DNA of 64,000 nt, taken from positions 62,001-126,000 of the forward strand of contig JADGKB010000010.1 of NCBI GenBank assembly GCA_027604185.1, in the 5' to 3' direction. The translations under genes were made by a program, and so were the position numbers. The stretch's first letter is position 1; each line of letters begins with the position of its first letter. This document shows, one piece after another, positions 21,854 through 45,362 of this stretch. Under the pieces are notes generated by a model. It saw nothing but the letters and a program-made list of their open reading frames with translations. It made no database searches and was not told the DNA's origin. Source of the DNA: Boothiomyces macroporosus. Lineage: Eukaryota > Chytridiomycota > Chytridiomycetes > Rhizophydiales > Terramycetaceae.

Positions 21854-23203
21854 ATGGACGAAAATAAGGGACTGTTTAAATATACAGAACAAGAACGCGC
21901 AAAAATAGCAGTGAAGCTGCTGCTATCGCTTTCAAAGCCTGTGCTGGCCGGCATCATAGGTACGCTAATCTAATAGAGATTCGCTCCAACCTTTGTTGAA
22001 AAAGGATCCCTTCCAAACACTTCCATATGAATTAAGCACAAAGATTTGCAGGTACTTGACAGTGGCAGACATTAGAAGGGTAATTCAAGTGTCAAAGAAT
22101 TGGAATCAATTAGGAAACGACGAGCATCTCTGGAAATTCTTGTTTTTCGCAAGAGGATGGCGTTGTAATGAACACTATATCAATGGAACAGAGCTGATTA
22201 ATACCCAATGGAAATACATTTATGAGCAGCGTTCAAGATTGGAGAATAATTGGATAAACGGGAGGTTGACAATACTAATACAGGTACACAGTTAGTGAGC
22301 TACATGGGCATGAAGATGCGGTATACACCCTTCAATTTGACGACCAAAAGATTATATCTGGATCTAGAGATCGAACTATAAAAATATGGGAAAATGGAGA
22401 TGTTTCAAAAACACTACTTGGACATAAAGCCTCAGTGTTATGCTTGCAGTACGATAAAGATATCATAGTGTCTGGGTCATCGGATTGCAGTGTGATAGTG
22501 TGGGTAAGTGGTTGTAATCGTAGGATATCTATACAGGCAATATCCTTCGTCATTTATTTTCACATTCAGAACCAGTGTTGAATTTGCAATTCAAAGATAA
22601 TATCCTTGTCACTTGCTCCAGAGATAAAACTATCAAAGTATATCTTGCTAATGTAGATATGGGATATTCAAACAGGGACGGTTCTGAAAACACTAATTGG
22701 TCACACTTCTGCTGTAAACGCAGTTCAATTCCAAGAGGATTTGATTGTATCCGCCAGCGGAGATCAAACTATTAAACTGTGGGATTTCAATGGCAACTTG
22801 ATAAAGACTCTGGTACAGTACACTAGAGGAATCGTTTGTATGCAGCTGAAAGGGAATTTAATAGTTACTGGCAGCAGTGATCATCAAATCAAAATATGGG
22901 ATTTAGACACTGGTATTTTTAATTAATTTAGGCCATCTGGTGGATTCCTTTGTTGGACATTCTCATCTGGTGCGCTCGATACAGTTTGACAAACGGAAAT
23001 TAGTTTCATCATCGTACGATCATACAGTAAAGATATGGGATATTAAAAATGGCAAACTCATTCATGATTTGAAAGGGCATACTGACTCTGTCCTAAAGGT
23101 CCAATTCAATGACACAAAGATAGTGTCAGCTGGTCACGACAAGAAGATTATCGTATGGGATTTCACTGTTGGATTGGATGACCCACAGTATTTCTATAAA
23201 TAA
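21854..23203 (+). CDS. F-box/WD40 repeat protein (SCF substrate adaptor), 417 aa
   Basis: Six exons; introns at 21960-21978, 22265-22283, 22504-22523, 22638-22656 and 22913-22931 (19-20 nt). The F-box is at about residues 45-90 ([29 protein letters not shown]). It is followed by seven WD40 blades with GH...WD/W signatures: [46 protein letters not shown], a blade ending [21 protein letters not shown] and [12 protein letters not shown]. Expected role: recognising phosphorylated substrates for an SCF ubiquitin ligase (Met30/Cdc4/Fbw7 class). The blades only assemble after the introns are removed. Confidence 0.93.
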
Positions 23204-23258
23204 GCTTTGTATTTAAAAACCTTATTTTTCTATAAATTACAATGAACATTTAAGCTTC

Positions 23259-23590
23259 ATGAAGAAAACCTTCAAGAAAAATTCTACCAGTAATAAAGAG
23301 ATAAATTAGTTTTATCGAATGGCAAGCAGGTTCCACTGCAAGATATTACAAATAATGTCAAACAAAGACAAAAAGATAAACTCGAATGCAAGGTTCCAAA
23401 GCAGGTAAAAGTAAAAGAAATACCTTACCCTGATTCACCAATTACAAAAGGAACTAGAATTTCTGATAAACTAGTGCCAACTGAACAACCAGTAATAGAT
23501 CCTTTTCCTGACCAACCAGACGTGTTTACTGAAATGGTAGATTCTGAAGACGAACTAATTAACGCAATAGCAGAGTTTGTGAAAATGTAA
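23259..23590 (+). CDS. Small protein with a PLQDITNN motif, 103 aa
   Basis: Two exons joined over a 20-nt intron (23290-23309) give MKKTFKKNSTILSNGKQVPL... to TAA. The N-terminus is basic with VPLQDITNN, a motif type seen near the N-termini of cell-cycle proteins such as mitotic cyclins; the rest is Lys/Pro-rich and ends in an acidic amphipathic helix (SEDELINAIAEFVKM). No domain recognised. A securin-like or other short regulatory protein is conceivable but speculative. It starts 55 bp after the F-box gene. Confidence 0.55.
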
Positions 23591-31658: not shown

Positions 31659-31791
31659 ACATAGTCATACGTGGCTCCATTAATCTTTAAGTAAACCTTT
31701 TAAGCGATAAATTACCTTTTTCTTTAAAGAATACTAAGCCACAAAGACAATGCAAATTAGAATGCGACTAGTATACAGATCTATTAAATCG

Positions 31792-39434: not shown

Positions 39435-41572
39435 TCATATATTACCACTTTTTTCTATTTCTTTAATATTTTTTGCCCGTAGCTCGGAATCGCTAAATAG
39501 AGCTTTGATGAGATGAACCAAATCTTTAACTTTGAATTCATTCAAGGCTCCCAATCGCCAGCATTCCATTATATTGGACATACTCCATGCCAAAAGCTGA
39601 ATAAGGGTCAAATAGTGGGCATATTTTGGTCCAGTGTAGTGGTTGATCAGGGAATACGGGGCATCTTCTCTAAAGATGGATTGGATCGCCTCAATTGCCA
39701 GTATTTCTGACAATCTATTGGATTCAACTTCAGTGATATCATAGAGTAACAGAATTTCGTTTGTTAGTAGTTCAGAAAGGTGATCAACCAAATAGCCCAA
39801 TCCTATTAAACACACATGCCTAGGGATTATTTCCTTAAATTAATATAATTCACCTTCCAAACGGTATGCAAATCTACAAAGTGTTGTGAAACTTGGGATA
39901 TAGTAGTCTTTACTTTTCTAAATCTACTTTCATCTTCACAATCCAAGCCTTCTGCCTTTTCCACTATCCTCCCAATTATAACTTTTTGAGAGTCCTATTA
40001 TTAATCTGGGACTTGCGATTGCAGATCCAAAGAATCTTTGGGCTAGAGAACGAAATTTCACTGTTAAATCCACGATTGACAGTTCAGAAGGTAATTTTGA
40101 AGATTTGGATAGTAGCCATGTTTGGCATTTATGTCCAAGGTACATGCAATCATTGTGGTAAAGCATTAGCATTTCTGATGATTGCTCCAGGGATAAAATA
40201 TTATAAAACTGTGCTCTTGATCTATCCAATATGTTTTTAACTATCGAAGCCAATTTCAGTAGCCTATCGAATTAGATATGCTTACATTTGGTCGCTGCAA
40301 GATTCCATTTGTGAAACGATCAAATCTATCAAGCTAGTTAATTCAAAAACATTCGAGTGAACTGAGCATGAGGGGAAATTAAATATTCCGGCTTTTCCTG
40401 TTGGAAGACTGTCTCTTTTCTTTTCAAGTACCTTCACTTCTTGATATTGAGAAAATATGAGCTCCTTTGCTGTTTCTGTAAAGTGTTTGGTTTGCTCATT
40501 CAATACAGACTCTAAACAACCGGAAAGATAGTCAAAAAGCAATTCTCCGGTATAAAGGTCTAAATTAAAATCTAACTACCATTACTGATTCGCTGCAGAA
40601 AGTCTTCCACCACTAGAGTATACTGTTGCTGATAGTCATACACTTGATCTACATCACTTGGAACAAATATTTGGAGATAGTTATCAATGATAGACTGACA
40701 CGTTGTATTCCAAACTTTGTTGTAGAGTGTCAATTTAAATGAGGGGAAATTATTCAATTTCTTGTTCATGAAATTAATTATAGATGCAATAGCATTCAAG
40801 GAGGATATATTCCCCTTTTTAGGAGATGACAGTTCCACAATATCCTTCTCCAAAGTAAGTTTCAACCTGTCTTCCTCTTGAAATAGGAGAACACTGTCAG
40901 TTTTTGTGATTCGGGCAATCAAATCTTTGATATCTTTACAAATAGAGTCAAAGTGGTCTTGGTTAACATCAAATTCTAGCACTGCGGTCAATAAAGTCTC
41001 GAAAGATATCCATGATTTAAAGAAAGATGACTCCAGCTGCCGAGGAATAACAATTTCATTATCGCCTCCATTAAATACTAGAAATTTTTGGAATAACACT
41101 CGTAATTCTGCAAGGGCGCTCTTTCTAGTACTCGAAAGGCTGTCAAACTTTTCGCTAATGCGTGCAAATTGCTCTGCGGGGATATCTTGCAAATATAAAG
41201 CTTCAACTGCTGTTTTAACTCTGTCATGGGTATTGCAAGCATCTGCTAATAAGTCAACTGCAATGAATTGAGCTTGATTGTTTTCTATTGCTTCCACCAA
41301 TTCCTCAATGCGAATTTGCTGCTCTATCCTACTGATATTCCCCTTCATTTCCTTTATCCGCCTCTGAATTTCTCCAGCTTCAAACTTGTTTAATTCCTAC
41401 TTTAGTTTGATTTTACTGCTTCAATCATCTCCATATCTTGGTAATGCTTCCACACGTTTTCAATATCTTTGATTGCGGTATTGATATCCAGGTCTCTGAA
41501 ATTCCTCAGTTCATATTTCAAGAAATCCAATGTTACGTTGCTGGTCAAAATCTCGATTTCCTCTTTTTGCAT
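39435..41572 (-). CDS. ZW10: ZW10/Dsl1-type tethering or kinetochore protein, 678 aa
   Basis: Six exons; introns at 41397-41416, 40560-40579, 40264-40285, 39964-39982 and 39834-39853 (20, 20, 22, 19, 20 nt). An all-helical protein that starts with a coiled coil (ELNKFEAGEIQRRIKEM). The C-terminal quarter is the most recognisable: FVDLHTVWKEIIPRHV, then SEILAIEAIQSIF and the ending VKDLVHLIKALFSDSELRAKNI, which resembles ZW10. ZW10 works in the Golgi-ER NRZ/Dsl1 tether and in the animal RZZ complex. The start codon is 12 bp from that of the divergent YIF1 gene, so 5' UTRs must overlap the neighbour or be almost absent. Confidence 0.75.
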
Positions 41573-41584
41573 TTCAAAGCAAAA

Positions 41585-42776
41585 ATGTACAATCCAAACC
41601 AGAGAGCAAATAGTCCTCATCAGAGAGCGACCGCTCCATCGAGAGGAGCGCGCAGTAGTCCTAACCCTAGGGCAAACAGTCCTAGCCACTATCAACAGGA
41701 TTATGTGCAAAGCGATCATCAATATCAACAGCAGTACCAGCAATTTCAAGTTCCACAATACACACCTCAACATGATCAATACCAACAACAGTATCAGCAA
41801 CAGCCTTATATTCCTCAACAACAGCAATTTCATCCCCAGCAAACTCAGCATCAGCAGCCATTCATCCCCCAGCAAAAAAACCAACAGCAGGGAAATCAAC
41901 CGTTCCCTCAATTTCAAGCCCAGAATTACATTAATGAATTTCAGCAAAGTGCAACTGGGCAGATTGGCATGCAGCTTGGACAAGAAGCATTTAATCAAGC
42001 CCAACAGAAAATTAATCAAAATGTACTGGATATCTAACGATAGTTTGGCCGTTACTTTAATATTGTTCAATGGCGGTACTATTTTAACGTCAGCAATTCC
42101 TATGTGATGCACAAGTTACAAGTTCTGCTCTTTCCTTTCCTACACAAGAGCTGGACTAGAGTAATCGAACAAGGTTAGTTTTACTAATCCGAGGAAATAA
42201 TGACGGTACTTTTGAATATGCCCCTCCTAGATCTGATTTGAATGCGCCTGACTTGTACATTCCAGTAATGTCATTCGTTACGTACGTTATACTGATTGGT
42301 ATATATACAGGTCTGAGTGGGACAGCAGGCAGTACAAAAAACAGCTTTTCACCGGATGTTCTAGGGCTAACTGCTTCAACTGCGTTCTTTATGATCATGT
42401 TTGAAGTTTTGCTCATCAAGATGGGATGCTATCTCTTGAATATTTCTTCCAACGCACCATTCTTGGAATTAATCTCTTACACTGGATATAAATTTATCCC
42501 GTAAATGATATTAATGTAGAATCAATTCTGTGATAGCGACAAAAGCATTTCAAAACAGTTTCCTCACTTATGGAGTCTTTATTTACACTGCCCTGTCGTT
42601 TGTGTTCTTTACGATAAGGTAGCTGGTTACTGACAAGATCTTTAAAAGGGATGATTATGCCTGATGTTCCAGAAAGCACGGTGAATGGCGTTGGCGGCTC
42701 AGCTAGGAAACGTAGACTGCTTTTCCTTTTCATTATAGCTGGTGTTCAAGTTGTTACTTGTTATTTGCTCATCTAG
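41585..42776 (+). CDS. YIF1: YIF1 family Golgi membrane protein, 370 aa
   Basis: Partner of YIP1 in ER-Golgi vesicle trafficking. Five exons; introns at 42023-42043, 42174-42193, 42501-42519 and 42619-42637 (21, 20, 19, 19 nt). A Gln/Pro/Tyr-rich N-terminus is followed by the family core: GQIGMQLGQEAFNQAQQKI, FNVSNSYVMHKLQVLLFPFLHKSW, YAPPRSDLNAPDLYIPVMSFVTYV and about five membrane helices. The only plausible ATG is at 41585 because the next in-frame Met lies inside the conserved core. Divergent to ZW10. Confidence 0.92.
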
Positions 42777-44031: not shown

Positions 44032-45362
44032 TCATCTGGTTTTTATATACACATAATGAAAGACAGCTGATACTAATACGGATATCAGGAACCATAAATC
44101 AAACCACCTTTGAAATGTTTGAAATTCCAAGTCTCCCAAGAGCGAAGTAATTACGACCCTTTGATTAGTAATAATTACCTATACTGTACGGGTAAATTAA
44201 TTCTCAACATCAACACCACACTGGACAAGTAAAATCCCATCAAGTGAGTCAGGAAAGCGATGGGTGAATCTGAATCTGTAGTAGTAGCCATCAAGGAAAC
44301 CTGTAATGAGATATAGTTACTTTGGAAAACTGCATTATGAATCCCCTAACAGCAACGATTACCATTATCCCAATCAAAATAAATGACAACTGGGCAGACC
44401 AAAACTCTAAATCCAAGTCCAAACCAAGCCAGTGGACCATAATATTTAGAATTCGAGTGACAATATCCTTTCCGTTTGTTCTGCTGAATATCAAATTGAT
44501 GATGGAAGTGAGTACTTTGTAGATACAATAAAAGGAAAAAAAGTAACCTGAGTAAGTTAATAGTAACCAAGAATATTTGAATAGATTCCTCTCCATGAAG
44601 TAGCCAGCTTTGATTTCTCTCTATCCAACAACAGGTTGTCATAATCCATAAACATTTGAGTCAAAAACATTTCTTTAGCTTGCACATCATGGCTGTTTCT
44701 CTTCTTGCTTGAAATCAATGACTCCAATGAAGATAGCAAATTATGCTCAGCTTTCTGGACATCCTTCTCTGACACTGGTCGAAGAAATACAGACAGATTG
44801 GAATATGGTGAATTTACAGCTGCAAATCCTGATAAAATCGCCATGATGGTTACTCCAACCAAACCCACTCTTCCTATTAAGGATCCCAGCATTGTATCTG
44901 AATTTGACCAGGTAAAGAAATACAATGCAAAAATGAAACTTGAACTTCCGATACTTGCAATAGCTATCCTGTTTTTAATTAACCATGGATTAAACGTCCT
45001 GTCAATGTATAGCAATATTTGATAAAAGGGAAGGATTGCGAGTACGTTGAGAATGATTAGGTATAATTGAAATGTCCAGTAAAAGGTCCTTTCCGTTGTT
45101 TGATTGAACAGTATCTCCATCAACACCAATGATAGCAAAGAAATGGAATTTGACCACACGAGGGCAAAGATTAACCTTGATTAATCTAATAAGATTACCT
45201 AATTTAGTGTTAAAAAACCTAATATTAGATTTACTCACCTAAGTTAAAATCTGAATACCTGGTAACTATGGTTGGTTTTGATCCAAAAGAAATATAAATT
45301 ATCGTCTTAAAGCCAATATAAAAATACAATATAAAACCCGCAGCCAAAAACAGAATTTCCAT
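44032..45362 (-). CDS. GPR89: Golgi pH regulator GPHR/GPR89-like anion channel, 395 aa
   Basis: Multi-span protein for counter-ion conductance during Golgi acidification. Five exons; introns at 45176-45258 (83 nt, composite), 44548-44567, 44301-44320 and 44159-44178 (20 nt each). Spliced, it aligns with GPHR along its length: an N-terminal helix pair, LIGRVGLVGVTIMAILSGFAAVNSPYSNLSVFLRPV (core), a coiled segment, SFYCIYKVLTSIINLIF, FWSAQLSFILIGIMVIVAVRG, VVITSLLGDLEF and the end QRWFDLWFLISVLVSAVF. The C-terminal exons are too short to appear as separate ORFs. The ATG lies 12 bp from that of the divergent gene. Confidence 0.92.
45176..45258 (-). other. Composite intron: four intron-like units in tandem (20+20+20+23 nt)
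   Basis: In the GPR89-like gene the frame resumes only if all 83 nt are removed: codons ACC AG join to G TTA ATC TTT GCC. Reading the minus strand, the segment is four back-to-back units, each beginning GT and ending AG with an internal TAAY: 45239-45258 (GTATTCAGATTTTAACTTAG), 45219-45238 (GTGAGTAAATCTAATATTAG), 45199-45218 (GTTTTTTAACACTAAATTAG) and a 23-nt unit at 45176-45198. Every internal junction is AG|GT. No subset of the units restores the frame without a stop except removal of all four. The spliced protein keeps the spacing of GPHR homologues. Confidence 0.85.

Follow-up and report, generated by a model that had tools for sequence, protein, structure and literature searches.

Putative composite introns made of abutting minimal introns in the GPHR gene and other genes of Boothiomyces macroporosus

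Within the window, by which we mean the whole 64,000-nt stretch of Boothiomyces macroporosus DNA that was analysed, minus-strand positions 45258-45176 consist of four abutting GT..AG units of 20, 20, 20 and 23 nt (83 nt in total) with AG|GT at the three internal junctions, the tandem arrangement that the original prediction had placed there. With a probability of roughly three in four, we consider this interval, which lies in a GPHR (GPR89-like) gene, to be one of many composite introns in the genome, in which minimal introns stand end to end, separated by zero-length exons, and are spliced unit by unit or occasionally a few units together.

By sequence, the GPHR units fit U2-type spliceosomal introns, with GT..AG ends, a branch element and the length typical of the lineage, and U2 and U6 genes are present in the genome. 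Specifically, unit 1 (45239..45258, minus strand; GTATTCAGATTTTAACTTAG, 20 nt) has an intron score of 3.8, unit 2 (45219..45238, minus strand; GTGAGTAAATCTAATATTAG, 20 nt) of 4.3, unit 3 (45199..45218, minus strand; GTTTTTTAACACTAAATTAG, 20 nt) of 1.4 and unit 4 (45176..45198, minus strand; GTAATCTTATTAGATTAATCAAG, 23 nt) of 4.7, against a median of 3.9 and a 5th percentile of 0.2 for the predicted introns of the window (n = 102). A TAAY element had been claimed for every unit, but in unit 3, the weakest of the four, the place of the branch element is taken by CTAAA, and the sole TAAY (TTAAC) lies farther upstream. The AG|GT arrangement recurs at both outer edges of the array, where AG closes exon 1 and GT opens exon 2.

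When both strands of the window were shuffled 40 times by dinucleotide, four-unit arrays were absent, compared with one observed, while a three-unit array arose once in the 40 shuffles, compared with two observed, both within the GPHR array. Among the 48 places of the window with at least two abutting GT..AG units, the GPHR array alone has all its units above −0.9; its weakest unit scores 1.4, and the weakest unit of the second-best place −0.9. The array is therefore a single long exception within the window, as had been proposed, but not in the genome, where 18 arrays were catalogued. As a side observation, three abutting GT..AG units with weak scores (−1.3 to −0.2) lie at 31675-31734 on the minus strand, outside predicted genes.

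The GPHR coding region (44032..45362, minus strand, its end computed from the length of the product) encodes 395 aa once the array and three single introns are removed. Exon 1 (45259..45362, minus strand) comprises 104 nt from the ATG at 45362, and the array separates it from exon 2 (44568..45175, minus strand), splitting codon 35 after its second base; the single introns, each of 20 nt on the minus strand, lie at 44548..44567 (score 0.9), 44301..44320 (score 4.0) and 44159..44178 (score 5.4). The codon-based gene finder on its own did not pick the GPHR array, probably because exon 1 is short, and we used a frame test and homologues instead. When all 16 combinations of retained and removed units were translated, removal of all four gave 395 aa, while the other 15 stopped at 35-106 aa, bearing out the claim that the GPHR frame is restored only when all four units leave.

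Comparison with homologues points to the same exon join. The Kappamyces protein P0006 aligns across the exon 1/exon 2 join (KPSVPT-R-FLFSLIWANS vs KPTIVT-R-LIFALVWSNS), the alignment of Globomyces P0004 picks up again at the same arginine, and the more distant homologues P0009 and P0015 have about five additional residues there. Pfam detects GPHR_N and ABA_GPCR in the 395-aa product, both downstream of the join, and a deposited Boothiomyces macroporosus protein is 100% identical to the product over 61% of the query. Judged from reading frame and homology, the whole 83-nt interval must leave the GPHR message.

Introns of the window fall into a narrow length class. A self-trained model predicted 102 introns of 19-25 nt with a mode of 20, in line with the proposed length of about 20 nt. 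For a genome-wide count, we searched for strong donors (GTAA) that are followed at defined distances by a strong branch-acceptor motif (CTAAYNNTAG). Pairs with a total length of 18-23 nt number 713 (118.8 per length), those of 30-60 nt 275 (8.87 per length), those of 61-91 nt 281 (9.06 per length) and those of 150-180 nt, used as background, 286 (9.23 per length). For these strong-signal pairs, the genome-wide excess at 30-91 nt is −16 ± 41, compared with 658 at 18-23 nt; the counts are compatible with a few long introns, which may amount to up to about a tenth of the strong-signal class. A reversed-pattern control for the 18-23 nt pairs gave 68 against 713, but it has another base content and the spacing controls were used in its place.

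The codon-based gene finder was also run with priors that admit long introns. With a length prior kept flat up to 200 nt, it fused intron-exon-intron stretches into false long introns and was therefore dropped for counting. With a 5% long-intron prior, four candidates longer than 27 nt appeared in the window, all of which were rejected: 42079-42184 (minus strand, gain 8.5) falls in a YIF1 gene on the opposite strand, 39995-40061 (minus strand, gain 3.0) reads as open coding sequence within a predicted gene at 39435-41572, 23188-23298 brings zero gain, and 44512-44678, with a gain of 0.3, lies opposite GPHR.

Pattern searches of the 15.2 Mb genome suggest that abutting introns are numerous. Three AGGT motifs at intron spacing give 157 matches, compared with 44 at 34-39 nt spacing; the 100 matches listed of these 157 correspond to 60 places, at 24 of which all units score above −1. 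Similarly, the pattern TAAY..AG|GTA..TAAY gives 150 matches, compared with 51 when the second element is shifted by 20 nt, and 18 of these 51 control matches contain a further AGGT. We relied on spacing controls and not on reversed patterns (503 against 157 for the AGGT triples, 94 against 150 for branch-AG|GTA-branch), because the reversed patterns differ in base content. Dividing the pattern excess by 0.29, the detectable share of window introns, yields a rough estimate of 340-400 intron|intron junctions genome-wide, a figure that presumes array units like single introns and counts segments present twice in the assembly twice. Identical matches reappear on C2, C3, C10 and C20 at constant offsets of about 42.6, 21.6, 53.7 and 45.1 kb, which indicates large near-identical duplications or assembly repeats.

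The original prediction had proposed searching the genome for longer introns with inner AG|GT, and such a search indeed yields arrays of two to nine units. Our catalogue, picked from the fetched loci, contains 18 arrays with 73 units and is a non-random sample, as arrays were fetched partly for their striking look; it leaves out places on C37, C42, C60, C63, C14, C9, C5 and C1:393038-393151 as well as locus L031. Abutting introns were modelled in seven of 17 loci (L066, whose gene model is low-scoring, and L067, L054, L059, L048, L019 and L031), and no abutting-intron model was obtained for the other ten, including L064, L065, L068, L069 and L070. Among 11 further loci fetched, L076 (C61) contained no chain above threshold. 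In a gene-model test of 13 arrays, 12 of which lie within a predicted gene, taking out all units improved the score in 11, left it unchanged in L078 and lowered it slightly in L074. Unit number is equal within each of the duplicated locus pairs L078/L079 and L080/L081, which thus give no sign of variation. Units scoring below 0, which count against our reading, are present in the arrays of the MGM101, WD40, p62 and C24 loci.

The longest catalogued array (C1:351601-351779), with nine units in 179 nt, interrupts an MGM101 gene. Residues 53-220 of the spliced product match Pfam Mgm101p, and the solved MGM101 structure (9yi6) aligns without a gap over the array site, after residue 111. In an SPX-ankyrin gene, which carries four units and then two farther on, solved SPX domains likewise align gap-free over the first site. 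Pfam matches span the array sites of the WD40 gene (seven units), the BRE gene (three identical or near-identical 19-mers and three more units), the ING gene (five units) and the MATH gene (four units); that of TFIIH p62 (four units) also covers the site and lies just below cut-off. In the chalcone-isomerase-like gene (five units) and the METTL-like gene (three units), the array is not covered by the family match, which falls downstream of it, and an ELMO gene carries two units. Finally, the array at L064 (C24:126578-126829, minus strand) is composed of eight abutting units, then a 44-nt piece that lacks an inner AG|GT, then a further two units; it adjoins an apparent coiled-coil gene.

The original prediction offered two routes for the GPHR array, skipping of the internal sites or removal of the units one by one. 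Both options were apt, and the stepwise route is favoured by the lack of a detectable 30-91 nt class and by the branch elements kept in internal units. We propose that a spliceosome tuned to about 19-25 nt would clear the units singly, occasionally in short runs, and in any order, each removal regenerating either AG|GT or the exon joint. Enumeration indicates that every removal order leads to one product, by 60 ordered paths for four units. Since every path ends in the same mRNA, extra units would be nearly invisible to selection and their duplication nearly neutral.

Alternatively, only the outermost donor and acceptor may be used, so that an array leaves in one step and its internal sites are idle relics of duplication. 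We regard this as unlikely, although it is the rival that fares best. The absence of a detectable excess at 30-91 nt makes it likelier that the units leave singly or a few at a time. To this is added the state of the internal signals in a diverged-array set, comprising 12 internal units of five arrays that were found by AGGT spacing and lack near-identical neighbours. Their branch elements equal single introns in quality (p = 0.80) and greatly surpass non-intron GT..AG stretches (p = 6e-8), which speaks against idle relics. At positions +3 to +8, their donors fall short of single-intron donors (p = 0.002) and exceed background (p = 0.005), which fits one-step removal better. When the comparison is widened to 37 internal units in 14 arrays, found partly via their branch elements, the two signals show no difference from single introns (p = 0.21 and 0.28). 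Furthermore, AG always precedes the donor at internal units, as against 28 of 102 single introns; this AG may offset the weakness of the internal donors, or some internal donors may be skipped.

The 44-nt piece of the C24 array also agrees with one-step removal; lacking an inner AG|GT, it suggests that double-length removal may occur or that this array is decaying. Together with the weaker internal donors, it speaks against strictly unit-by-unit splicing. In addition, the GPHR array folds slightly better than its shuffles (z −1.7; 10 of 200 shuffles equally good), and such folding could bring the array ends together for removal in one step, but the folding of two further arrays does not exceed the shuffled level.

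The sequences of neighbouring units hint at how arrays lengthen. Of 55 neighbour pairs, 13 reach an identity of at least 75%, a level attained by 6% of random window-intron pairs (p = 1.6e-5, only a guide because the catalogue is non-random). In the MGM101 array, neighbours among units 3-7 are 90-100% alike, exact copies included; two units of the BRE array are identical; and in the C24 array a two-unit block (20 + 22 nt) occurs twice in succession with one difference. Neighbour likeness is thus found in the arrays of MGM101, BRE, ING and the chalcone-like gene and, at the level of the two-unit block, in that of C24, and identical or near-identical neighbours in several arrays argue for growth by tandem duplication. 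In such growth, an intron of about 20 nt or a block of units would be duplicated in tandem and the array would lengthen; the copied unit would come complete with donor, branch element and acceptor, and AG|GT would arise automatically at the new joint.

A second rival, which we hold to be less probable still than one-step removal, is that the units came by separate insertion at AGGT of intron-sized elements, introner-like or repair filler, and not by tandem duplication. It agrees with the 42 of 55 neighbour pairs that are less than 75% identical and with the GPHR units, which are unrelated in sequence: GPHR neighbours are 55-70% alike, the level of random introns (mean 61%), so that this array is either old or of other origin. 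The exact or near-exact neighbours and the duplicated two-unit block in several arrays oppose it, as does the host site. In each of eight distinct arrays inspected, the last two bases of the upstream exon are other than AG, which indicates that the array junctions do not derive from an AG|GT host site. The suggestion that such arrays record serial growth therefore survives for several of them, on the evidence of near-identical neighbours, with duplication of whole units in place of insertion beside existing sites. On balance, we lean towards a picture in which introns here behave like minisatellites, the minimal intron serving as the repeat unit: arrays would expand and contract by tandem duplication, a spliceosome gauging length at about 20 nt would clear the units singly, by many equivalent paths via zero-length exons, and unit number would be free to drift in essential genes.

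Among known systems, tandem duplication of segments with AGGT has been described as creating splice sites (PMC3443670; PMC4974935); in those cases an exonic or boundary segment gives an intron at a new place, whereas here a whole intron would be copied beside itself. At zero-nucleotide ratchet points of Drosophila, acceptor and donor are juxtaposed as AG|GT and stepwise removal regenerates the donor; these points sit within long introns and require a cryptic exon at the site (PMC8605326). The arrays share with this recursive splicing the AG|GT joint and the zero-length exon, and differ in that their pieces are about 20 nt long, up to nine in a row, and each a complete intron. The proposed likeness to ratchet points accordingly holds for the AG|GT at the three internal GPHR junctions but not for the host, since 83 nt is no long intron; each junction is followed after some 20 nt at most by the end of the next unit, which leaves little room for a cryptic exon.

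Stwintrons, also composite introns of fungi, offer a further parallel, as consecutive reactions would take place in both. Under a published definition (PMC9024468), they require a fixed order of removal, one intron lying inside a splice element of another and obligatorily leaving first. Such nesting is very improbable here. The units are complete and lie side by side, each with its own donor, branch element and acceptor, their order would be free, and splicing of the outermost pair also gives the right product, which the definition bars; the proposed likeness to stwintrons stops short of their defining nesting, which is absent here. What does resemble the arrays is a composite intron of Lipomyces starkeyi with abutting donors, reported to leave in one or two reactions (PMC7138796), which is the nearest precedent for converging paths. 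By analogy, splicing of the arrays would be a miniature form of recursive splicing through zero-length exons, and they fall outside the strict definition of a stwintron. An origin by chance, from a coding minisatellite or through an erroneous gene model is equally improbable: some AGGT tandem repeats among the matches listed (C16, C34) lack intron signals and resemble other repeats, but homologues align across the array sites, and the shuffles, the frame test and the unit scores all oppose such an origin.

With the ultra-short introns of nucleomorphs and ciliates, the arrays share a narrow length class, and for nucleomorph introns length itself may serve as a recognition signal (PMC5014332). 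In that paper, 'tandem' and 'adjacent introns' are without match, as are 'tandem', 'adjacent intron' and 'recursive' in the main text of a Stentor paper (PMC9505925). Consistent with the claim that no array of minimal introns has been described, we found no such description in titles and abstract starts of the open-licence literature, among the matches listed.

Deposited gene models of related strains deviate at the same sites. The GPHR model P0001 of Boothiomyces JEL0838 begins with MEIL and continues with FFNTKLGNLIRLIKVNLCPR, which equals window units 3 and 4 translated in that frame, so that these two units are seemingly present in JEL0838 and were taken as coding. The GPHR models P0002, P0003 and P0005, from JEL0838 and related strains, start downstream of the array region. 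All four deposited models (Boothiomyces, Terramyces) are thus wrong or shortened at the array, and P0001 and P0002 also extend into the following gene. Among the predicted MGM101 proteins, that of JEL0838 is intact, that of Boothiomyces JEL0866 (P0019) has 12 additional residues exactly at the site of the nine-unit array, and that of Terramyces (P0020) lacks the stretch around the site. The 12-residue insert looks like translated intron sequence, in which two Phe-Asn pairs would derive from TTYAAY.

In practical terms, several deposited gene models of these fungi err at array sites. If our reading is true, the arrays would form ladders of 20, 40, 60 and more nt, a natural test of whether a spliceosome is able to measure the length of introns. 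They would also represent a route of intron multiplication in which the protein stays unchanged at every step, and would thereby bear on how introns spread.
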